A DNA stretch of 64,000 bases from Bifidobacterium asteroides (GTDB lineage: Bacteria; Actinomycetota; Actinomycetes; Actinomycetales; Bifidobacteriaceae): NCBI RefSeq assembly GCF_019469425.1, contig NZ_CP048272.1, positions 1,240,001 through 1,304,000 on the forward strand, written 5' to 3'. Shown piece by piece: positions 18,053 to 28,955 of the stretch. The notes beneath the pieces were generated by a model that was not told where the DNA came from, did not search any database, and saw only the letters and a list, made by a program, of their open reading frames with translations. The position numbers were made by a program, and so were the translations under genes. The first letter of the stretch is position 1; each line of letters starts with the position of its first letter.

Positions 18053-18997
18053 TCATTCCTCAAACAGCCGCATGGCAGCCTGCGAATCCGTGATAAGCAC
18101 GTTGGCATAACCGCCTTGAAGAGCCGCCCGCATGGACGCTATCTTGGAAGGCCCTCCCGCCACCAATATGGAGCAGGGCTTCTTGCGCAGCCGATGAAGT
18201 CGTATTCCCACCGTTCTTGCGTCAATATTGTCATCCGCAATGGAGCCATCGGCAGCTATGAATCGTGAAAGCACATCGCCGACGGCCTTATGCTGGAGCA
18301 TGGTGATTTCTTTACGGGAAAGATACCCTAGCTTGAAGAGCATGGCATCGTCCCGAACGGTTCCGCAGGTGAACACGGCGATATCGGTCCGGTCCCCCTG
18401 ACGAACGATCGCGTTTATGAAACGGTCCTTGAGCACAATGTCCCTAGTCAATGCATTGTCGAAGATGACCGGCAAGGGCAGCACTGTTGTTGTGGTGCCG
18501 AAAGCCATGCCGAATTTCAGGGCGATATCCGCGGCATAGTTGTTGAAATCGGATGCGGAGACGCTCCCCTTCAGCTGCACCACCGACACATCCTTGTGCT
18601 CATTCGGCCGCAGATGATCGGCTACGGCCTTGAGGGTCCTTCCCCAGCTGATGCCCAACCGGTCATGGTCTCCGACAATCTCGGCCAAGTAATCTGCTGT
18701 AACCGCGCCCAGTTTACCCCTGATGACATCTTCATCGCCGGTCGAGTCATATGTCAGCCTGACCTCGCGCAGTCCGAATGCCACTTTGAGTCTTCTGGCC
18801 AAGGACTCCAGATCAGTCTGCGGGTCCGCGATGAGCACGCGGACAAGCCCCTCCTGCTTAGCGAATGCCAGGAGACGCGAAACCGTAGGACGGGAAACAT
18901 TCAGTCTGCGGGCGATGGCGCTCTGGCCTAAGCCCTCCTCGTAATACCAGTGGCAGACTGTGACAGCTTGATTTCTATGCTGTTCATCTTTGATCAT
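18053..18997 (-). CDS. deoR: SorC/DeoR-type sugar-binding transcriptional regulator
   Basis: A 314-residue regulator. The N-terminal helix-turn-helix reads LGQSAIARRLNVSRPTVSRLL (residues about 23-43), and the rest is a SorC-type sugar-phosphate-binding domain. It is the family of Bacillus DeoR and CggR rather than the E. coli DeoR family. It is divergent from deoC, the arrangement of a local repressor whose effector in Bacillus is deoxyribose-5-phosphate. The start at 18997 follows AGGAGAGGAGAAGG; the longer frame from 19021 begins inside that site. The gene symbol is assigned by family and context. Confidence 0.85.
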   Translation of the reverse strand: MIKDEQHRNQAVTVCHWYYEEGLGQSAIARRLNVSRPTVSRLLAFAKQEGLVRVLIADPQTDLESLARRLKVAFGLREVRLTYDSTGDEDVIRGKLGAVTADYLAEIVGDHDRLGISWGRTLKAVADHLRPNEHKDVSVVQLKGSVSASDFNNYAADIALKFGMAFGTTTTVLPLPVIFDNALTRDIVLKDRFINAIVRQGDRTDIAVFTCGTVRDDAMLFKLGYLSRKEITMLQHKAVGDVLSRFIAADGSIADDNIDARTVGIRLHRLRKKPCSILVAGGPSKIASMRAALQGGYANVLITDSQAAMRLFEE

Positions 18998-19077
18998 AAA
19001 ACCTTCTCCTCTCCTGCTCATGTGGAACCAAGATGCAAAAGAGCTTCACGGCTTGTCGGCAATTGAGCATTAATTTC

Positions 19078-19091
19078 TGAACATATGTTCA
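19078..19091. promoter_or_regulatory. Palindromic operator between deoR and deoC
   Basis: TGAACATATGTTCA is a perfect 14-base palindrome in the 154-base divergent gap. A second half-site TGTTCATT occurs 23 bases on, at 19109-19116, giving direct repeats of TGTTCATT. The placement fits a SorC/DeoR binding site covering both promoters. AAGGAGG before deoC is its ribosome binding site. Confidence 0.6.
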
Positions 19092-19151
19092 TTTTAGCAT
19101 TTCACTTCTGTTCATTCACTGTTACGGTTAGGCCAACAAGGAGGCAACAAC

Positions 19152-19802
19152 ATGCAGATCAATCGCCTCATCGATCACACCCTGCTCAAACCAGACGCAA
19201 CGCTCGCGCAAATCGACCAGGTCATCGACGAAGCCCTGAACAACCATTTCTATTCAGTCATGGTCAATCCCCACTGGGTTTCCCACGTCCATGAAAGGGT
19301 AAGGGGGTCGGATGTCCTGACTGCCTGCGTCATCGGCTTCCCCCTCGGCGCCAACACCACTGCTATCAAGGTCGCCGAAAGCCGGGAAGCCATCGCGGAC
19401 GGAGCCGATGAACTGGATATGGTGATCAACATCGGTGAAATGGCAGGCGGACGGGAAGACCTGGTTGCCAAGGACATTCGTGCGGTTGTCGAGGCAGTCC
19501 ATCAGGCAGGAAAGGTGATCAAGGTCATCATTGAGACTGCCCTGCTTAGCGATGAACAGATTGCTCGGGCCAGCATGCTGGTGGCTGATGCAGGCGCCGA
19601 TTTCGTCAAAACATCCACCGGATTCGCCAGCCGTGGCGCCAGTGTGCACGACATAGAAGTCATCAAACAAGCAGTCAATGGAAGAATCCACATCAAGGCA
19701 GCCGGCGGCATCCACACCCGGCAAGAGGCTGAAGCCCTGATCGACGCAGGCGCTGAACGGCTGGGCACTAGCTCCAGCATGGCCATCATCGGCAAAGCCT
19801 GA
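19152..19802 (+). CDS. deoC: Deoxyribose-phosphate aldolase
   Basis: A 216-residue class I aldolase that splits 2-deoxyribose-5-phosphate into glyceraldehyde-3-phosphate and acetaldehyde. The Schiff-base lysine is K153 in FVKTSTGF, with proton-relay residues D89 (ELDMV) and K182 (HIKAAGGI). Length is typical for bacterial DeoC. It heads an operon with a FucP-type permease, a DeoX-like protein and a PfkB kinase, so the substrate may come from imported deoxyribose rather than only from nucleosides; no nucleoside phosphorylase gene is present in the window. Confidence 0.97.
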   Translation: MQINRLIDHTLLKPDATLAQIDQVIDEALNNHFYSVMVNPHWVSHVHERVRGSDVLTACVIGFPLGANTTAIKVAESREAIADGADELDMVINIGEMAGGREDLVAKDIRAVVEAVHQAGKVIKVIIETALLSDEQIARASMLVADAGADFVKTSTGFASRGASVHDIEVIKQAVNGRIHIKAAGGIHTRQEAEALIDAGAERLGTSSSMAIIGKA

Positions 19803-19811
19803 CTTCGGCAT

Positions 19812-19829
19812 CCGGGGGCGCGCCCCCGG
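19812..19829. repeat. Perfect 18-bp GC palindrome after deoC
   Basis: CCGGGGGCG/CGCCCCCGG lies 10 bases past the deoC stop and 66 bases before the permease start. There is no T-tract. It could form a stem that attenuates transcription or protects deoC mRNA, letting the aldolase be expressed above the permease. Confidence 0.5.
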
Positions 19830-19894
19830 GCCGACTCTTATATTCTCGGTGAACGCAATGCGGCGTCCCCGAATGCAAACCCAAGGAGGGGTTC

Positions 19895-21241
19895 ATGCAA
19901 TCACCGACCTTTCATCTGTTCAAACTCCACGCGCAGGAATTGGATGACGGTTACCTGGACAGGACGCCTATGCTCCAGTACATCCTGCTCTCCTGCCTGT
20001 TCCCCCTTTGGGGTGCGGCCGCCAGTCTCAATGACATACTCATCACCCAGTTCAAAACCATTTTCACCCTTTCCAATGTCGCCAGCGCCTTTGTGCAGAC
20101 GGCCTTCTATCTTGGCTACTTTCTGATAGCCATACCGGCTTCGCTGATCATCAAGAAGACCTCATACAAGGTCGCCATCATGATCGGCCTTTCGCTGTAC
20201 ACCATCGGATGCTCGTTCTTCTTCCCCGCCTCGCGCATGGCCACCTATGGTTTCTTCCTAATCGCCCTGTTTGCCTTGGCCTGCGGTTTGAGCTTCCTGG
20301 AGACCTCGGCCAACACTTTCAGCTCCCTTATGGGGCCGAAGAAGTACGCCACCCTGCGGCTGAATATTTCTGAGACCTTTTACCCGCTCGGAGCCATAGC
20401 CGGCATACTCCTAGGCAAATACCTGATTTTCGGTGCAGGCCAGAGCCTGGAGAAGCAGATGAAAGGGCTTCACGGACAGGCCCGCATCGCCTTCGGCGAG
20501 CGCGCGCTTCAGCACACGCTGCTACCTTATAAATGCATCATTTTCGTTCTGCTAGTCGCCCTTGTGCTTTTCGCGCTGACACAATTCCCCTCAGGCAAGC
20601 CCAAGGTGGATGCGACTAAACAGCATCCTCAGGCGCGCATCAGTGAAACTTTGGTCTATCTGGCGCATAATCGCCGCTTCCTTTGGGGCATTTTCACCGA
20701 GTTCATGTATGTAGGAATGCAGACGGCCGTCTGGTCCTTCACCATCAGATTGGCCATGGAGCTCAATTCCTCAATCAACGAACGCTTGGCATCGACTTTC
20801 ATGGTCTACAGCTATGCGGCCTTCTTCGTAGGCAAGGTCATTGCCAACTTCATGATGAAGTCCATGCATCCCGCTCGGGTCCTGCAATGGTTCTCGGCAT
20901 TCGGACTGGCTGCCCTGGCCTATATCCTCCTTGTGCGCAACATGAGCGCCGTCTATGCGGCCATTCTCCTCTCAGGTCTGTTCGGACCCTGCTGGGCAAC
21001 CATCTACTCGGAGACCTTGGATACCGTGACCGACAAGCGCCACACGGAAACAGCAGGGGCCATCATCGTCATGTCCATCGTGGGCGGGGCCTTCATCCCT
21101 GTAGCGCAGGGATTCGTCGCGGACATCTCGAACATGTCCCTGTCCTTCCTTGTCGATGTGGTCTGCTTCGCCGTCGTCTGCGCCTATTCCACAGCAAAGA
21201 TGCGCGCCTTCAAAGCTGAAGGCGCTCAGCAAAACCAATGA
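19895..21241 (+). CDS. deoP: FucP-family MFS sugar permease, probable deoxyribose importer
   Basis: A 448-residue MFS protein with about 12 membrane segments. It has FucP-type features: an N-terminal charged leader then LQYILLSCLFPLWGAAASLNDILITQFK, and FLETSANTFSSLMGP in the fifth-helix region, the position where FucP has its ETxxNP-like motif. FucP relatives import deoxy-sugars by proton symport. Placed between deoC and a DeoX-like protein, with a PfkB kinase after it, it matches DeoP of the Salmonella deoQKPX deoxyribose operon. The start follows AAGGAGGGG. The substrate is inferred from context. Confidence 0.85.
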   Translation: MQSPTFHLFKLHAQELDDGYLDRTPMLQYILLSCLFPLWGAAASLNDILITQFKTIFTLSNVASAFVQTAFYLGYFLIAIPASLIIKKTSYKVAIMIGLSLYTIGCSFFFPASRMATYGFFLIALFALACGLSFLETSANTFSSLMGPKKYATLRLNISETFYPLGAIAGILLGKYLIFGAGQSLEKQMKGLHGQARIAFGERALQHTLLPYKCIIFVLLVALVLFALTQFPSGKPKVDATKQHPQARISETLVYLAHNRRFLWGIFTEFMYVGMQTAVWSFTIRLAMELNSSINERLASTFMVYSYAAFFVGKVIANFMMKSMHPARVLQWFSAFGLAALAYILLVRNMSAVYAAILLSGLFGPCWATIYSETLDTVTDKRHTETAGAIIVMSIVGGAFIPVAQGFVADISNMSLSFLVDVVCFAVVCAYSTAKMRAFKAEGAQQNQ

Positions 21242-21255
21242 AAGGAACCCCAATC

Positions 21256-22272
21256 ATGCAACAGCTTCACCTCAATCATGACATGTTCGGCCCGGCCGAA
21301 TTCACCCTCTATCAGGACGATGACTTCAAAGCCGTCACCTTCACTTACCCATCAGGAGTGGAAGCGGTCCGTCTGGAGAATTCTCGCGGCCAGCTCACCA
21401 TCCTGCCTTATATGGGCCTGATCATCTGGGATGCGGTCTTCTGCTCCATCAGCCTAAAGATGAAAGACATGTTCTCGCAGCCCCTGCCCGGCACCGGCAT
21501 CGCTGATACCTATGGCTGCTTCCAGTTCACTTCAGGACTCCTTGGCGGCGGAACGCCGGCCCCGGAGGATGACTACCAACTTCACGGCGAGGCCCCGACC
21601 AGCCGTATGGATAGTGCCTGGCTGGAATTCGGAGATAGGACCATGTCAATACATGGACAATACGAATATGTCAAAGGATTCGGCGACCACTACCTGAGTC
21701 GGCCATCCGTAACATTGCACACGGATTCTGGCCTCTTCGACATCAGCCTGGACGTTACCAACCTCTCCAACTGCCAAACCATGCCCCTGCAATACATGTG
21801 CCATATGAACTACGCCTACGTGCATGACGGGCATATGGAACAAAATGTGCCCGACAAGGCTTTCCGCCTACGCCGGACCGTTCCCGCCCACGTCCATCCC
21901 ACCTCGCAATGGCTGGCCTACAACGAAGATCTCAAGGCCAGCGGCGAGCTGATCAACGACCTGAACGACGAGAGCCACTACGATCCTGAGATCGTCTTCT
22001 TCTCCCAAAACCTGGCCAAATTAACCGATGTGGCCGAGTTCCGACTCCACCTGAATGCCGAGCACAACTTCCTGACACGGTTCAGCACAGAGCAATTCCC
22101 CATCGTCACCCGCTGGATCCTCTACAACGCTGATCAGCAGGTGGCGGCCTTTGCCCTGCCTGGCACCAGCACGCCCGAGGGCCGCGCCGCCGCAGAGAAA
22201 GCAGGCACCCTGATCCACCTCAAGCCCAGGGAAAAGCGTTCATTCCTGGTAACCACCGGCCTGGAAAGGTAA
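21256..22272 (+). CDS. deoX: DUF4432 / aldose-1-epimerase-like protein (DeoX-like)
   Basis: A 338-residue protein of the galactose-mutarotase fold. Visible segments include YPSGVEAVRLENSRGQLTILPYMGL, GCFQFTSGLLGGGTPAPEDDYQLHGEAP with a mutarotase-like HGE, and CHMNYAYV. It resembles the DUF4432 proteins that accompany deoxyribose kinases and permeases, and may interconvert sugar anomers or have another unproven role. The start at 21256 follows AAAGGAACC; the frame also opens at 21238 within that region. It sits 14 bases after the permease and 8 before the kinase, so all are one operon. Confidence 0.8.
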   Translation: MQQLHLNHDMFGPAEFTLYQDDDFKAVTFTYPSGVEAVRLENSRGQLTILPYMGLIIWDAVFCSISLKMKDMFSQPLPGTGIADTYGCFQFTSGLLGGGTPAPEDDYQLHGEAPTSRMDSAWLEFGDRTMSIHGQYEYVKGFGDHYLSRPSVTLHTDSGLFDISLDVTNLSNCQTMPLQYMCHMNYAYVHDGHMEQNVPDKAFRLRRTVPAHVHPTSQWLAYNEDLKASGELINDLNDESHYDPEIVFFSQNLAKLTDVAEFRLHLNAEHNFLTRFSTEQFPIVTRWILYNADQQVAAFALPGTSTPEGRAAAEKAGTLIHLKPREKRSFLVTTGLER

Positions 22273-22280
22273 GGATCAAT

Positions 22281-23207
22281 ATGACCGACATCACTGTCAT
22301 CGGTTCTAACATGTATGAGCTGACCACCTTTGTCAATCGCATGCCGATGGAGGGAGAGACTGTGGAAGCTCCTGAATTCGAGATGGGATTCGGCGGCAAG
22401 GGAGCCAACCAGGCCATAGCCGCCGCCCGTCTGGGTTCGGAGGTCAACTTCATCACCATGGTCGGCAACGATGAATTCGGCAGACAGCAGCTGAAGAACT
22501 ATCGCAGCAACGGCATCAACAGCGATGGAATCGGCATCACCGATGGGAGCAGCGGCGTGGCGCCAATCTTTGTGGACACCAGCGGCGACAATCGGATTCT
22601 GATCATAAAAGGCGCCAACAAGCAGTTGACGCCTGCCGCCTTGGACGGTAAAAAAGACCTCATCAAGGGGCCGAAACTGGTCGTTCTTCAGCAGGAGATC
22701 GCCTTGGAGACCAACTATCATGCGATTGAACTGGCGGAGGACTACGGTGTGCCTGTCTTGCTGGACCCTGCGCCAGCCAATGACGATCTGAACATCGACC
22801 ATGTCTCCAGAGTGACCTTCTTCGTACCGAATGAGACCGAGCTGGCTACGCTCACCGAAATGCCCACAGGGACACTGGACGAGGTCAAAGCCGCAGCGCG
22901 AGACTTGGTAAGGCGTGGGGTACGCAACCTGATTGTCACCATGGGCGGCAAGGGCGCCCTATGGATCAGCGCCGACCAGGAGCTGCTGGTGCCTGCGGTC
23001 ACGGTTGAAGCCGTGGACACTACTGGCGCCGGCGATGCTTTCATCGGCTCGTTTGCCCACTACTACACGCAGGGCGAGGATGTGCCAACAGCTCTGGGCC
23101 ACGCCAACAGATACGCTGCAATCAGCGTCACACGCCGCGGCACCCAAAAGGCTTATCCAACAGCCGCCGAGCTCAGCGACCTACTGCTGGAAAGAGTGCA
23201 GGTGTAA
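22281..23207 (+). CDS. deoK: PfkB/ribokinase-family sugar kinase, probable deoxyribokinase
   Basis: A 308-residue ribokinase-like enzyme. Signature 1 is GFGGKGANQAIAAARLG (about residues 37-53) and signature 2 is DTTGAGDAFIGSFAHYY (about 247-263), whose GAGD aspartate is the catalytic base. Ribokinase and deoxyribokinase are close relatives, so sequence alone cannot decide. The company of deoC, a FucP-type permease and a DeoX-like protein favours 2-deoxyribose, giving deoxyribose-5-phosphate for DeoC. It is the last gene of the operon. Confidence 0.87.
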   Translation: MTDITVIGSNMYELTTFVNRMPMEGETVEAPEFEMGFGGKGANQAIAAARLGSEVNFITMVGNDEFGRQQLKNYRSNGINSDGIGITDGSSGVAPIFVDTSGDNRILIIKGANKQLTPAALDGKKDLIKGPKLVVLQQEIALETNYHAIELAEDYGVPVLLDPAPANDDLNIDHVSRVTFFVPNETELATLTEMPTGTLDEVKAAARDLVRRGVRNLIVTMGGKGALWISADQELLVPAVTVEAVDTTGAGDAFIGSFAHYYTQGEDVPTALGHANRYAAISVTRRGTQKAYPTAAELSDLLLERVQV

Positions 23208-23358
23208 GGTCTTCACCATGGTCGCATTGCCAGACGTGGACGGATAGACCGCCCTCGTCTGCCTTTTATGTCCTTACTTTGAAATGCTGTCATATACTGT
23301 GTCTCAAAGAAAAGCAGGAGCCACGATTCACAGACACCAGCCAGAGAGGGTAATGAAT

Positions 23359-24183
23359 ATGGCCAATCAAGTGGCACTGGTCACTGGAGCCACAAGCGGC
23401 ATAGGATATGAAACCGCGCGAATGCTCGCCGAGCATGGATACAGGGTGTATGCGGCAGGGCGACGAGTCGAACGACTGAAGCCGCTGGGCGACAAGGGGG
23501 TTACAGCCCTGCAGATGGACCTGACCGATTCTGCATCCATTGAGAAGGCCGTCGCACAAATCCTGCAGAAGGAGAGGCGGGTGGATCTGCTGGTCAACAA
23601 CGCCGGCTACGGGTCCTATGGCCCAGTCGAGCAGGTCTCCATCGAAGAGGTGCGTCGACAATTTGAGGTCAACCTCTTCGGCCTTGCCCACTTGACCCAG
23701 CAGGTACTGCCCGCCATGCGCCGAGCCGGACGCGGCCGGATCGTCAACACCTCATCCATGGCAGGCCGAATGGTCACCTATATGGGTGCCTGGTATCATG
23801 CCACCAAGTACGCCCTTGAATCCTTCAGCGACGCCCTGCGCATGGAAATGCGTCCCTTCGGCATAGACGTGGTCCTGATCGAGCCCGGAGCCATTGCCAC
23901 CAACTGGGGTGCAATCGCCGCCGACCATCTCCAGACGGTCACCCGCAAGAGCGCCTATCAACAGTCAGGATTCCGAGCTGCTGCCGAGCTGCGCAAACTG
24001 TACTCCAGCAGGCATTTGACCCAACCATCAACCATCGCCAAGGCCATCGTCCGTGCTTCGATGGTACGCCATCCCCGCCCACGCTACCTTTTGGGCTTCG
24101 GCGCCAAACCTCTGGTTGCCCTTCATGCTTTGCTCCCCACCCGCGCTTGGGACTACCTGATGGTCCATGCCAAGGACCTGTAG
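23359..24183 (+). CDS. Short-chain dehydrogenase/reductase (SDR)
   Basis: A 274-residue classical SDR. The cofactor motif is TGATSGIG (residues 9-16), followed by AGRRVERL, which suggests NADP preference. NNAGYGSYGP is present, and the catalytic triad is Ser in NTSSMAGR with Tyr and Lys in YHATK. The sequence recalls 17-beta-hydroxysteroid-dehydrogenase-like SDRs that act on lipophilic ketones or acyl groups. The start at 23359 is preferred because GAGAGGG is 8 bases before it; ATGs at 23353 and 23284 are also open. It may be a separate unit after the deo operon. Substrate unknown. Confidence 0.9.
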   Translation: MANQVALVTGATSGIGYETARMLAEHGYRVYAAGRRVERLKPLGDKGVTALQMDLTDSASIEKAVAQILQKERRVDLLVNNAGYGSYGPVEQVSIEEVRRQFEVNLFGLAHLTQQVLPAMRRAGRGRIVNTSSMAGRMVTYMGAWYHATKYALESFSDALRMEMRPFGIDVVLIEPGAIATNWGAIAADHLQTVTRKSAYQQSGFRAAAELRKLYSSRHLTQPSTIAKAIVRASMVRHPRPRYLLGFGAKPLVALHALLPTRAWDYLMVHAKDL

Positions 24184-24301
24184 GCGAAAAACAAGCTATC
24201 AGAACAGTACTCCTGAGCAGCCGAATGCTTGGCGAGGAAGCTGTCGGACAGGAGCGGCAGTTACAATGGGATCCCTAGCTAACTGTCAGGATTCTAGATC
24301 C

Positions 24302-25330
24302 TCAAGCCTCTAGAGCGCGCGCTCCCAGGAGCGCCTGCTCAGCATCCATGGGAACGCGGCCCAGGCCGTCAAGGCCTACATTGAGCAAGTAGTTGATGCC
24401 GTACTTGTTCAGATGGGCCTTGTAATCATGAATGGTCTGCGGACTCTTCCAGTTCTGGTCATGATAGGAAAATCCCCAGGAATCGTTGATGGTCCCGGCG
24501 GTCTCATAGAGGCCGAGCTTGGAGGGCTTGAATCCTTCGATCGAGTTGTAGTCGACATCCCCGTCCGAGGTTGCCTTCTCGCTGGCATCCGAATCTTCGG
24601 GAATCTCGTTGTCCCCCAGAGAGACGTAGTCGTAACGACCGTTGCCCAGTCTGGAATTGATCAGGCAGTCGGGCTGCAGGCGCTTGACCGTATCGTAGAT
24701 GGTCTGGCTCTGCTCGTCGCTGAGGGTCATTGGTACGTCAAACCAGGCTACCGATATTTCCCCGTAGTTGCTCATGATCTCTTCGATCTGCGGCATGATC
24801 TTGTGCTCGAATGCCCGGTCGTAGTTCTTCTCCCCCGTGAAGTCCCAGCTGTTGTCCCAGGTGGTGCCTGCGGTCTCAATATCGTTCGAGAGGTATCCGC
24901 CGCCATCCGGTTCATGCCAGTCCAGGTCCTGCGAATAGTAGAGACCAAAACGCAGTCCGGCCTTGCGGCAGGCCAAGGACAGCTCGCCGATCACATCCCG
25001 GTGGAATGGCGTCGCGTCATAGACGTTGTAGGGATCCACCAGCGACCGGTACATGGCGAAGCCGTCATGGTGCTTTGTAGTGACGACCAGATACTGCATG
25101 CCGCAGCGCTTGGCCAGATCCACTATGGCTTCCGCGTCGAAATAGATCGGGTTGAAGGCCTGCGTGAGGCGTTCGTACTCCTTGTTGGGAATTTGGAGCT
25201 TGGATTGGATCCACTCCGCATAGTTGCTTGACGATTTCCCTTGGTACTCCCCTCCCAGGAGGGAATAGAGACCCCAGTGAATCATCATGCCGTACTTGGC
25301 TTGCTTGAACCATTCCACGGTATCGATCAT
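24302..25330 (-). CDS. GH29 alpha-L-fucosidase, AlfC-like
   Basis: A 342-residue intracellular (no signal peptide) alpha-L-fucosidase. HWGLYSLLGGEY, TTKHHDGFAMY and the WFD motif are GH29 hallmarks. The nucleophile is predicted at D198 (SVAWFDVP) and the acid/base at D240 (SLGDNEIP). GH29 enzymes are often 430-480 residues; this short form, with catalytic positions near 200 and 242, matches the alpha-1,6-specific AlfC of Lactobacillus casei as I remember it. It lies 47 bases after an MFS permease on the same strand, so intact small fucosides are probably imported and cleaved inside. Confidence 0.9.
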   Translation of the reverse strand: MIDTVEWFKQAKYGMMIHWGLYSLLGGEYQGKSSSNYAEWIQSKLQIPNKEYERLTQAFNPIYFDAEAIVDLAKRCGMQYLVVTTKHHDGFAMYRSLVDPYNVYDATPFHRDVIGELSLACRKAGLRFGLYYSQDLDWHEPDGGGYLSNDIETAGTTWDNSWDFTGEKNYDRAFEHKIMPQIEEIMSNYGEISVAWFDVPMTLSDEQSQTIYDTVKRLQPDCLINSRLGNGRYDYVSLGDNEIPEDSDASEKATSDGDVDYNSIEGFKPSKLGLYETAGTINDSWGFSYHDQNWKSPQTIHDYKAHLNKYGINYLLNVGLDGLGRVPMDAEQALLGARALEA

Positions 25331-25377
25331 TATTTACCTCTGTCTCTGCTGATTGACACGAACTGCTGTGACAGCCC

Positions 25378-26577
25378 TCAGATGGTCAGCTTGTCTTTCT
25401 TGACGACGAAGGCATCGTAAAGGGCCAGGATCACGTAGCAGACTCCTGCACACATGATCATGAAGCCTGGGTCTTTCTTGCCAAGCACCCCGCCCAGAGC
25501 CTGGAAGAAGTAAGGAGCCACCAGGGAGCCGACGTTGATGCCGATCAGGATGATCGAAGTGGTCAGGTTCATAGAGCCCTTGGGCGAATAGGCAACCATG
25601 CGGGCAGTCAGAGCCGGATTGATGATGCCGTTGCAGAACCCTGCCACCAGGACCAGGACCAGCAAGAGCGGAATGGAGTTGGTGAAAGGCATGGCGATCA
25701 TAACCACTGCCGTCAGCACCTCGAAGATGAAGACAGTGTATCGTCCGCACCACTTGGCAAGTTGTTCGAAGGCGATACCTGAGATGATCGAACAGAGCAC
25801 CAGGAAGCCGAAAATCCTGGTGGCATCGGCGGCAGAACCTATGCCGGACTCAACCATGTGGCTGGCCAGCTTCAGAGAGATGGCCGAATAGAAGAGACAT
25901 ACGAAGAGGAAGAGGATGGCCAGCTGGATAACGCCGCCGTTGGTGGACGGCTTGATAGAGGTGTCTTCTTCAACCTCCTTGCCGTCCTCCACGATGACGC
26001 GGTCAAGCCTCTTGGGGACGAAGAGGGAGACAAGGACAATGGGCACAATCAGGAAGAGGAACACCAGATAAGTGGCGTGCCAGGAGATATTGATCAGGAA
26101 TCCTGCGATGAAGAGCATGATCGAATCGCCGATAGCGCCGACGGAGTTCCTCCAGCCCAGAAGCCTGTTCCTGATTTTCTCGGGGAAGACATCGGTGATG
26201 TAGGAGACGCTCAGGGGGGTGAAAATGCCCATGCCCACGCCGAACATGGCCCTCGACAGGAAAATGGCCGGATAGTTATAGAAGAAGGCGGGGATGATTC
26301 CGAAAACCAAGGAGACAATGAGCCCCAAAAGGACCGTGTACTTCTTGCCCAGCTTGTTGGATATGAGGCCGCTGACCACAGTTCCCAGCAGGACGCCTCC
26401 CGTAGGGATGACAACCAATAGCTCGACGTTGGCCTCTGAAATGTTGGAAAAGTACTGCTTCATCAGCGGGATGGTCCCTGAGACGGCATTGGAAACCGAC
26501 ATCAGAAACGATATGGACAAGATGCCCAACATCAAAATCGGTGAACTGGTGTTCACCTGTTTCTCTTTTGACTCCAC
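25378..26577 (-). CDS. MFS permease, probable fucoside/glycosyl-asparagine importer
   Basis: A 399-residue MFS transporter with about 12 membrane segments. The motif A region reads GLISNKLGKKYTVLLG, and SRAMFGVGMGIFTPLSVSYI suits the fifth helix. A GTG start at 26577 is chosen because GGAAGGGA lies just before it; the open frame continues to an ATG at 26667 but that adds a polar, non-conserved stretch. It heads an operon with the AlfC-like fucosidase and is divergent from an aspartylglucosaminidase-type gene. A role in importing fucosylated GlcNAc or GlcNAc-Asn is inferred from this context. Confidence 0.85.
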   Translation of the reverse strand: MESKEKQVNTSSPILMLGILSISFLMSVSNAVSGTIPLMKQYFSNISEANVELLVVIPTGGVLLGTVVSGLISNKLGKKYTVLLGLIVSLVFGIIPAFFYNYPAIFLSRAMFGVGMGIFTPLSVSYITDVFPEKIRNRLLGWRNSVGAIGDSIMLFIAGFLINISWHATYLVFLFLIVPIVLVSLFVPKRLDRVIVEDGKEVEEDTSIKPSTNGGVIQLAILFLFVCLFYSAISLKLASHMVESGIGSAADATRIFGFLVLCSIISGIAFEQLAKWCGRYTVFIFEVLTAVVMIAMPFTNSIPLLLVLVLVAGFCNGIINPALTARMVAYSPKGSMNLTTSIILIGINVGSLVAPYFFQALGGVLGKKDPGFMIMCAGVCYVILALYDAFVVKKDKLTI

Positions 26578-27110
26578 GAAAGTCCCTTCCTCGGAACTGT
26601 CATCACATCCGCATTCGCGATGGCGAGCACTGATTGACTCATGTACTGCAAAACAACTAGATTCCATGGACCATCTTGATCCCGAACTATTTCAAGAGAA
26701 ATGGTTTGTTAATAGTATATATCAAATTGGAAACTGTACATGCCGAATTGTTGCCTCATCCAGAATTGGTGGGATCTGCTGTCTAGCGATCACTGGGGAA
26801 AATGCAGCAACCCGGCCTTCAAAGTCGACCTTTTGATATGTAGGGACACGCTAATGCCTTTTAAAACGATCAAAAGCACCGACATGACATCCGGAAACAA
26901 GAAGTGCCTTTGGCAATTATCATTACAGAGGAAACAGGACAGAGGACATGATTGCTGTCTGCACGCGAGCAAGGCCGGCCCGCAGCCGATGGCCTGTCCG
27001 CTCAGGGCGCGGCCTGTCAGCTTGATCACCCGTCGATCGGCTGAATCCGGCTGCATCGGCCTTCCGGTCAAGGGCAGTCAACGACCATATCAACAGAAAG
27101 AGCCAAGGAA
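26578..27110. other. 533-bp divergent intergenic region, no gene found
   Basis: This gap separates the permease-fucosidase operon from the amidase gene. An AT-rich block at about 26690-26730 with TATATA-type sequence probably holds the promoter of the leftward operon. An imperfectly spaced inverted pair, CTTTTGAT at 26830-26837 and ATCAAAAG at 26869-26876, could bind a regulator. No regulator gene lies in the cluster. Confidence 0.4.
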
Positions 27111-28064
27111 ATGAATGATTCATCCCCGCAGCAATCCAGCCAAAATCAATCCACCTGGGCATCCATCGCTACCTGGCGGATGGCCTATGAAGGTATGGTC
27201 AAGTCCAGTTCCGGTCTTGAAGAGGGTGGCCAGGCAGGCGACGCTGTCGAGACGTTGATTCAAGAGGTCGAAGCCAACCCCGATTACACTTCCGTCGGTT
27301 ATGGCGCCTTGCCCAACCGGGAAGGCGAGATGGAGATGGATGCCGCTTTCATGGATGGAAACGACATGGCTCTGGGCGCTGTAGCTGGCATCCAGTATGC
27401 ACTGCACCCCATATCAGTGGCCAGACGGTTGAGTCGACGCCATACCAGCAGCTTTCTAGTCGGACAAGGCGCTACTCGCTACGCCCTGATCAGCGGGTTC
27501 GAGATGCGCAACATGCTGACGGACAGGGCCAGAAGACGTTGGGAGTTGGAATCCGCAAAGGCCACAAGACCAGAGTCTGCCGGCCCCTATCGAGGCCACG
27601 ATACGGTCGGGGCCATCTGCTTGGACTTGCAGGGGTCGATGGCTGCTGGCACATCAACATCGGGGCTCTTTATGAAGGAACCAGGCAGAGTAGGCGATTC
27701 ACCCCTGCCCGGCTCGGGCTTCTACGTGGACAGCGCTGTCGGAGGGGCGGCCGCCACCGGACTGGGAGAAGACATCATGAAAGGATGCCTCTCCTATCGG
27801 ATCGTCGCCCTGATGGGAAGAGGATTGACCCCGCAGGAAGCCTGCGACTCTGCAGTCTACGAATTTGACAGCCTCCTGAGGAAACGCTACGGCAAGGTCG
27901 GCGAGATCTCCCTGATCGCTCTCAACACAAGAGGGAAATGGGGGGTCGCCACCAACGTGGAATTCACCTTCTGCACAGCCAGGAAAGGCGAGCAGACACG
28001 CATACTCATGGCTAATCCGGACGGCAAGAGCGGAACACGAATCGAGCCAGTCGCCAAGGACTAG
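27111..28064 (+). CDS. N4-(beta-N-acetylglucosaminyl)-L-asparaginase family amidase
   Basis: A 317-residue Ntn hydrolase of the aspartylglucosaminidase/isoaspartyl peptidase family. The precursor should cut itself before T165 in RGHDTVGAICLD, freeing the catalytic threonine. The downstream GTSTSG (180-185) and GRVGDSPLPGSG motifs are those of aspartylglucosaminidases. HDT and GRVGDSP favour GlcNAc-Asn hydrolysis (to GlcNAc, aspartate and ammonia) over plain asparaginase. There is no signal peptide, so it acts in the cytoplasm. It is divergent from an AlfC-like fucosidase, which would remove the core fucose that blocks this class of enzyme. Confidence 0.9.
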   Translation: MNDSSPQQSSQNQSTWASIATWRMAYEGMVKSSSGLEEGGQAGDAVETLIQEVEANPDYTSVGYGALPNREGEMEMDAAFMDGNDMALGAVAGIQYALHPISVARRLSRRHTSSFLVGQGATRYALISGFEMRNMLTDRARRRWELESAKATRPESAGPYRGHDTVGAICLDLQGSMAAGTSTSGLFMKEPGRVGDSPLPGSGFYVDSAVGGAAATGLGEDIMKGCLSYRIVALMGRGLTPQEACDSAVYEFDSLLRKRYGKVGEISLIALNTRGKWGVATNVEFTFCTARKGEQTRILMANPDGKSGTRIEPVAKD

Positions 28065-28155
28065 TTGCAGTAATATGAGCATCCGCTGAGGATGCCCGTT
28101 AAATGACCGCTTATCATTCTTGACTACTCAGTCAATTAATGGTATCTTGGCGGGC

Positions 28156-28581
28156 ATGGGTCGTAAGAGAAATTTCAATGATGATGAGATCCTTGCCCGT
28201 GCAGGAGAAGTTTTCCTGGAACATGGCTATGAGGGTACGTCGATTGATGCGCTCGTTAAGGAAACGGGTCTGCTACGAGGCAGCCTCTACGGTGCGTTTG
28301 GCAGCAAGCGTGGCATGTTCGTGGCTGCGCTACGTGACGCAACGGATTCGGAGTCGCGCGATTCAGGAGTGCTCGATCTGGTATTGGTAGCACTCATGGA
28401 GTTGTCAGATCATGATCTCGAGGTTCGTGGGCTGGTCAGGGACTACCTTGTGAAGCTGTCCCGTTCGAGATCGTGCCATGCCAATGCTGCGAGCGTTGAT
28501 GTCGCCAAGCTCCTTGGCGAGACGCTGCTGCAGCGTGCACATGTTCGGTTGCAGTCTGATGATGAAAGAGGCAAATCATGA
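28156..28581 (+). CDS. Short TetR family regulator
   Basis: A 141-residue regulator. The TetR helix-turn-helix is intact: DEILARAGEVFLEHGYEGTS then LVKETGLLRGSLYGAFGSKRGMF (residues about 9-56). The ligand-binding part is only about 80 residues, against about 140 in ordinary TetR proteins, so the gene is either a compact form or truncated at the 3' end. Its stop overlaps the next gene start (ATGA), which argues for a stable operon rather than recent decay. The start is placed at MGRKRNF; an in-frame ATG at 28120 adds 12 residues. Confidence 0.8.
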   Translation: MGRKRNFNDDEILARAGEVFLEHGYEGTSIDALVKETGLLRGSLYGAFGSKRGMFVAALRDATDSESRDSGVLDLVLVALMELSDHDLEVRGLVRDYLVKLSRSRSCHANAASVDVAKLLGETLLQRAHVRLQSDDERGKS

Positions 28582-28955
28582 ACAACAAGGTGGCAATTGT
28601 CGGGCGGACCCTGGAGATTGAGCCGCAGGGTTTGGATAAGATGTGGTCGTTCAGGGGGAAACTGGTGGTGCCGCTCGAGCATGTTCTGGGCGCGAGCGAG
28701 GATCCGGGCATTCTTGACGATGCCAAAGGTCTGCGTGCACCCGGCCTGCATGTTCCCGGTAAATGGGCCGGTACATTTATTGAGCAAGGGGAGAAAACAT
28801 TCTGGAATGTCACTAGACCGGAAAGCCCCATCGTCATCCAACTCAAGGGGGAGCACTATGACCGACTGGTGCTAGGGGTAGAGCATCCCCGCGAGCTGGT
28901 CAACCGGATCAACGCGGCCATCACAAAGCAGCAAACAATGAATTCCAACACCTGA
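28578..28955 (+). CDS. Small conserved-looking protein, possible PH-like domain
   Basis: A 125-residue soluble protein coupled to the short TetR gene. The predicted beta-rich pattern (VAIVGRTLEIEPQGLDKMW, KLVVPLEHVLGA, IVIQLKGEHYDRLVLGVE) ends in a helix (PRELVNRINAAI). That layout resembles bacterial PH-like domains. There is no signal peptide or membrane segment. The function is not recognised. Pairing with a TetR regulator suggests inducible expression. A long perfect hairpin at 28996-29042 follows. Confidence 0.7.
   Translation: MNNKVAIVGRTLEIEPQGLDKMWSFRGKLVVPLEHVLGASEDPGILDDAKGLRAPGLHVPGKWAGTFIEQGEKTFWNVTRPESPIVIQLKGEHYDRLVLGVEHPRELVNRINAAITKQQTMNSNT

Follow-up and report, generated by a model that had tools for sequence, protein, structure and literature searches.

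The three genes analysed here lie in a 64,000-nucleotide stretch of the Bifidobacterium asteroides chromosome (the window; contig NZ_CP048272.1 of assembly GCF_019469425.1, positions 1,240,001 to 1,304,000) and encode an alpha-L-fucosidase of glycoside hydrolase family 29 (GH29), a permease of the major facilitator superfamily (MFS) and an amidase of the N-terminal nucleophile (Ntn) hydrolase type. With a probability that we put at roughly 0.87, the set forms the core of an alf-2 cluster for the use of Fuc-alpha-1,6-GlcNAc-Asn (6'FN-Asn), a functional reading to which homology lends good support. In the proposed pathway, the permease would import 6'FN-Asn, the cytoplasmic GH29 enzyme would take off L-fucose, and the self-processed amidase would split the resulting GlcNAc-Asn into aspartate and 1-amino-GlcNAc. 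The latter would decay to GlcNAc and ammonium, and GlcNAc would feed into the nag genes on the chromosome (ROK kinase, NagA and NagB). What we infer is how permease and amidase function in this genome, how the pathway connects to the nag genes, where the fucose goes and what acts as inducer.

All three open reading frames (ORFs) are open and intact. The permease and GH29 genes follow each other in that order on the minus strand with a gap of 47 bp, and the amidase gene diverges from them on the plus strand. Pfam searches assigned GH29 to Alpha_L_fucos (E-value 2.1e-62), the permease to MFS_1 (5.2e-35) and the amidase to Asparaginase_2 (1e-65). Inspection by eye, without a predictor, showed no signal peptide in GH29 or the amidase. 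The gene content and catalytic residues named in the original prediction, which had been made from the window alone, thus agree with the ORFs, the families and the structural comparisons described below.

Features of the locus and its surroundings (positions in the window)
Feature	Position	Strand	Remark
GH29 alpha-L-fucosidase, AlfC / BaGH29-26A type, 342 aa	24302-25330	-	D198 nucleophile, D240 proposed acid/base
MFS permease, AlfH type, 399 aa from GTG 26577	25378-26577	-	ORF reaches 26667; likely start
Divergent promoter region	26578-27110	.	contains 24-base stretch 26705-26728
Ntn-hydrolase amidase, AsnA2 type, predicted glycosylasparaginase, 317 aa	27111-28064	+	predicted self-cleavage before T165
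TetR gene	28120-28581		looks like flanking backbone
TetR gene and ORF of 125 aa	28120-28955		ORF without Pfam family
FucP-like permease gene	19895-21241		
Probable 2-deoxyribose operon	18053-23207		includes FucP-like gene

The best solved match to GH29 is the B. asteroides fucosidase TT1819 (PDB entry 8p1s; 788 bits, ∼97% identity), from which it differs by nine substitutions in 342 residues as counted by eye in the alignment. The second is the AlfC structure 6o18 (616 bits); by its sequence the enzyme is of the AlfC type. GH29 is also 98% identical to its homologue in B. apousia. PMC11189522 describes the solved structure of an alpha-1,6-specific fucosidase from B. asteroides, BaGH29-26A, with Asp218 as nucleophile and Asp260 as a proposed, unvalidated acid/base in that paper's own numbering. 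D198 of GH29 is replaced by asparagine in the catalytic mutant 8p1r, and an offset of 20 residues would map Asp218 and Asp260 onto D198 and D240. From the organism, the mutant and the offset we infer that TT1819 (8p1s/8p1r) is BaGH29-26A; a literature search on the name TT1819 returned no paper. The alpha-1,6 specificity of GH29 is accordingly taken from a ∼97% identical enzyme with the same catalytic residues, which is active on 6FN and also frees fucose from FA2G2 (PMC11189522).

The permease gene, which adjoins the GH29 gene as the AlfH gene does alfC, encodes a protein 72% identical to the permease of Lacticaseibacillus chiayiensis, 68% to that of Enterococcus sp. CSURQ0835 and 62% to that of Companilactobacillus nantensis, each of which also adjoins a GH29 gene. 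Its 429-aa ORF appears to be over-long. The likely start, a GTG giving 399 residues, is preceded by a Shine-Dalgarno-like AGGAAGGGAC, and the equivalent codon is ATG in three related genomes (G004, G008 and G020). Upstream of this codon, the frame of G004 and G008 runs into a stop without passing a start codon. The frame stays open further upstream in the window's own genome (G000), G025 and G020; comparison of the sequences nevertheless disfavours the longer form for this genome.

The locus is the core of an alf-2 cluster. Published work already covers the pathway, the fact that B. asteroides has it, and the specificity of the fucosidase. In L. casei BL23 the cluster has the organization alfHC / asdA-alfR2-pepV-asnA2-sugK, and growth on 6'FN-Asn needs AlfH, AlfC, AsnA2 and SugK; an asdA mutant shows reduced growth, PepV is dispensable and fucose is excreted (PMC6960285). 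The same paper bears out the L. casei pathway with AlfC, AsnA2 and an MFS permease on which the original prediction had drawn. Both loci share the permease, fucosidase and amidase families and the layout with the MFS-GH29 pair on one side and a divergent amidase on the other. Unlike the L. casei cluster, the locus here has no alfR2 (GntR), pepV, asdA or sugK among those neighbours that were scanned, and the ROK kinase of this genome is found in a separate nag cluster. Variation of this kind is known, in that L. rhamnosus lacks asdA, bifidobacteria are said to lack PepV homologues and asdA occurs among them in B. magnum and B. gallicum only (PMC6960285). The legend to Fig. 7 of Becerra et al. 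2020 lists alf-2 clusters in B. asteroides Bin2 and B. actinocoloniiforme DSM 22766, members of the same genus with the same genes according to the text (PMC6960285). Bifidobacterial AsnA2 was reported from B. actinocoloniiforme, B. asteroides and B. xylocopae only; for their AsnA2, AlfC and AlfH the closest sequences are those of Lactobacillus, and transfer from lactobacilli was proposed (PMC6960285). The original prediction named no earlier description in bifidobacteria; this legend and the Discussion of that paper supply one. The idea of an actinobacterial counterpart stands as regards function and falls as regards a parallel system, since the gene families are those of L. casei alf-2.

The notion that core fucose blocks the amidase, so that a fucosidase must act first, holds for the human aspartylglucosaminidase (AGA) and fails for AsnA2. 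The L. casei enzyme tolerates core fucose in part, with 20.91 μmol/mg/min on GlcNAc-Asn versus 0.26 μmol/mg/min on 6'FN-Asn, which is ∼80-fold slower (PMC6960285). Removal of fucose first is a preference and not a requirement of AsnA2, though L. casei needs alfC to grow on 6'FN-Asn.

A different main substrate, namely 6'-fucosyl-GlcNAc (6'FN), another 6'-fucosyl sugar or a core-fucosylated glycopeptide instead of the free glycoamino acid, is unlikely but carries some weight. L. casei without the repressor AlfR2 also degrades 6'FN, 6'FucGal, 6'FucGlc and N2F via AlfH and AlfC (PMC6960285), and because no GntR repressor was found beside the cluster in the window such sugars might be used directly. 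However, growth of that L. casei mutant on 6'-fucosyl sugars was very poor (PMC6960285), and co-conservation with the amidase points to the Asn-linked form. As to glycopeptides, PepV, which was proposed to act on peptides in L. casei (PMC6960285), was not found in the cluster.

We next consider the type of the amidase. In the alignments with 1ayy_B and 1apy_B, residue T165 falls on the first residue of the mature beta chain. In the PDB, the glycosylasparaginase 1p4k ranks first with an E-value of 2.7e-54, whereas the top isoaspartyl entry reaches 4.4e-40. When 41 AsnA2-like rows were aligned with three isoaspartyl-type rows of other bifidobacteria, T165, R193, D196 and T216-G217 proved common to all 44 rows. 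T21, W22, M24 and D164, by contrast, do not vary among the 41 AsnA2-like rows and are changed in all three isoaspartyl-type rows. W22 aligns with W11 of 1p4k. This tryptophan is a marker of the glycosylasparaginase family, a role with which its absence from the three isoaspartyl-type rows agrees. The amidase thus combines the catalytic threonine, the D-T autoproteolysis site and the W11-equivalent tryptophan of a glycosylasparaginase (EC 3.5.1.26). With the glycosylasparaginase of Elizabethkingia meningoseptica (1p4k and related entries) and human AGA it shares the Ntn family and the catalytic threonine, the likeness at the tryptophan being established against 1p4k alone; unlike them, it has no signal peptide discernible by eye. 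By analogy with AsnA2, the amidase would cleave GlcNAc-Asn. If it were instead an isoaspartyl peptidase/asparaginase, the pathway would consist of permease and fucosidase alone and would serve alpha-1,6-fucosyl sugars. The sole NCBIfam match, beta-aspartyl-peptidase PRK10226, and the Ntn core residues common to both enzyme types would fit this view. We regard it as very improbable, because the PRK10226 score of 123.9 bits is far under the equivalog cut-off of 567 bits, the PDB ranking and the glycosylasparaginase-like W22 and D164 argue the other way, and the protein is 64% identical to the divergently encoded amidase of the L. chiayiensis alf-2-type cluster, AsnA2 of L. casei having been measured as active on GlcNAc-Asn (PMC6960285). 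Viral contigs searched with amidase patterns gave no match.

The distribution of the genes was analysed in 27 genomes of the genus, counting as close a full-length GH29 of at least 79% identity and a permease of at least 81%, together with full-length amidases; weak or broken GH29 matches (six genomes), amidase remnants (six) and distant MFS matches alone (eight) were excluded before counting. Close GH29 was found in nine genomes, full-length amidase in eight and close permease in seven. All eight genomes with amidase also have close GH29, and all seven with close permease have both enzymes (Fisher tests, with relatedness ignored, 4e-6 for GH29 with amidase and 4e-5 for GH29 with permease). 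The co-conservation on which the original prediction hinged is therefore present. A linked triad occurs in six genomes (G000, G004, G008, G020, G025 and G026), the five besides the window's own sharing 79-99% identity with the window in GH29 and 81-99% in the permease. The amidase stands apart in one genome (G001), where permease and GH29 lie together ∼235 kb from an amidase near SDR and guaA genes. The permease is mostly gone from one genome, another retains a fucosidase without intact partners, six contain amidase remnants only (G003, G007, G009, G011, G018 and G019) and twelve contain none of the set. In all six remnant genomes, the fetched 15 kb revealed neither GH29 nor permease DNA, with no close copy elsewhere in them. 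The twelve negative genomes yielded only a broken 50% GH29 match (G017), a weak 31% match (G023) and distant MFS matches. That the locus is a decaying relic without a present role in this genome, as the remnants and partial losses in its relatives might suggest, is the least probable alternative in our view, with three intact ORFs here and in five more linked-triad genomes.

Except for the permease-fucosidase pair of G001, all sets and remnants occupy a single chromosomal site. Among the 16 regions fetched, many show the set framed by an SDR gene upstream and by TetR, the 125-aa ORF and guaA downstream; TetR was not seen in the fetched regions of G001, G011, G019 and G026. At this site G007 carries a 335-aa ORF and a small ORF that by eye looks zinc-ribbon-like (L148:5856-7176). 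The pattern suggests ancestral presence of the set with repeated loss; judging from the amidase tree, several arrivals at the same site are also possible.

A further comparison kept 80 GH29 loci of 588 that matched. The amidase was found in the flank of five, those of B. apousia (L001), B. polysaccharolyticum (L002, with a broken permease), L. chiayiensis (L003), C. nantensis and Enterococcus sp. CSURQ0835. The other 75 had no amidase in the fetched flank, in some because contigs end early, and their sole permease match was one of 31% (L009); the genome of L009 has an amidase on another stretch, and those of L006 and L007 have none. By reading translations, the L. chiayiensis order is ROK kinase, asnA2, pepV (M20-like), GntR and then divergent alfH-alfC, with identities to the window of 77% for GH29, 72% for the permease and 64% for the amidase. 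Together with the AlfC-type GH29 and the co-conservation, the latter two values make the predicted sequence of uptake, defucosylation and amidase cleavage the best reading. Among 397 Lactobacillaceae genomes (E-values up to 1e-100 for GH29 and 1e-50 for the amidase), 12 of the 13 with GH29 have an amidase, versus 80 of 397 overall (Fisher 2e-8, relatedness ignored); the two genes lie within ∼7 kb in six of the 12 and far apart or on different contigs in the other six. In three Lactobacillaceae genomes (G300, G270 and G440; L156, L165 and L166) the open frame that contains the amidase match is 755-770 aa long and may represent a fusion to a neighbour such as pepV. Within the family, 50 of 189 genomes match the amidase; the 36 outside the window's genus do so at 31-40% only and, judged on three of them, look like isoaspartyl-type relatives.

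An amidase tree of 44 rows (31 of the 80 Lactobacillaceae matches, one bee Lactobacillus, one Enterococcus, eight bifidobacterial and three isoaspartyl-type) placed the bifidobacterial sequences in two groups, of six and two rows, arising from an unresolved fork, so that one and two transfers are indistinguishable. The 'one change' that the tree program reported for the eight rows was counted versus the three outgroup rows only and came with a long-branch warning. The tree settles neither the direction nor the number of transfers.

Several observations weigh against the proposed pathway. According to PMC11189522, BaGH29-26A is inactive on IgG glycan and glycoprotein and on PLA2 N-glycan or glycoprotein, and larger substrates therefore look unlikely. 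PepV, GntR (AlfR2), ROK kinase (SugK) and AsdA are absent among the nine Pfam-scanned proteins encoded at 19895-28955, and the L-fucose isomerase domain PF07881 was not found (control 3/14). A literature search, mostly outside subscription journals, returned no biochemistry on bifidobacterial AsnA2 or AlfH. In C. nantensis and Enterococcus, two of the three non-bifidobacteria with a close triad, the amidase lies on the GH29 strand and is not divergent. Finally, G022 has intact GH29 and amidase genes with most of the permease missing (window positions 25533-26515), and G010 keeps GH29 with scraps of the permease and has no amidase; the enzymes are thus retained even where the set is incomplete, unless the decay is recent.

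The genes for the further use of GlcNAc lie ∼1.1 Mb from the locus, with nagB (G000:C1:139650) scoring above the curated cut-off and neighbours that by eye look like nagA and genes for a ROK kinase, an AGE-like enzyme and a ROK regulator. Searches for endoglycosidases gave no GH85 match in 29 genomes (control 1/14) and no GH18 match in the window's own genome (control 6/14), which makes it probable that the host or other microbes release the stub; GH20 gave one match.

In the divergent promoter region, the 24-base stretch, which occurs once in the window, is identical in five of eight genomes checked (its own included), has three mismatches in G022 and is unrecognisable in G026 (10 mismatches) and G001 (nine). 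It may be a candidate operator or promoter element, or merely reflect a young promoter. An operator shared with the nag cluster was rejected, since comparison of the two promoter regions showed no common motif. TetR is not favoured as regulator of the set, because TetR and the 125-aa ORF persist where the set is broken (G003, G007, G009, G010 and G018). In G025 the pair is separated from the amidase by ∼7.4 kb (L136:900-8400) with genes that by eye resemble ABC-transporter and two-component genes. The pairing of TetR with the 125-aa ORF recurs in relatives with and without an intact fucosidase set; the gene looks like flanking backbone, a remote regulatory role on the set being possible.

The FucP-like permease was rejected as a fucose importer for the pathway on its gene neighbourhood. 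This member of the FucP family (TIGR00885, above cut-off) is accompanied by DUF4432 and ribokinase-family genes and, from reading translations rather than family searches, by ORFs for a SorC/DeoR-like regulator and a DeoC-like aldolase. The neighbourhood resembles a deoP/deoX/deoK-type operon and is probably a 2-deoxyribose operon, in which the permease is open to mis-annotation as a fucose importer.

Taken together, these data give even odds to a scenario in which the B. asteroides group, isolated from bees according to the literature, has a reduced alf-2 set at one ancestral site. Without its own repressor, peptidase or kinase, the set would feed GlcNAc to the nag genes and would be disappearing gene by gene across species, the permease in one species, and fucosidase and permease in others with a broken amidase, so that related symbionts would differ in access to core-fucosylated glycoprotein stubs. 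If functional, the set would let these bifidobacteria draw carbon and nitrogen from N-glycoproteins whose glycans others have already trimmed. The remaining gain is evolutionary, in that the uneven loss among sister species would make niche differences between them testable.

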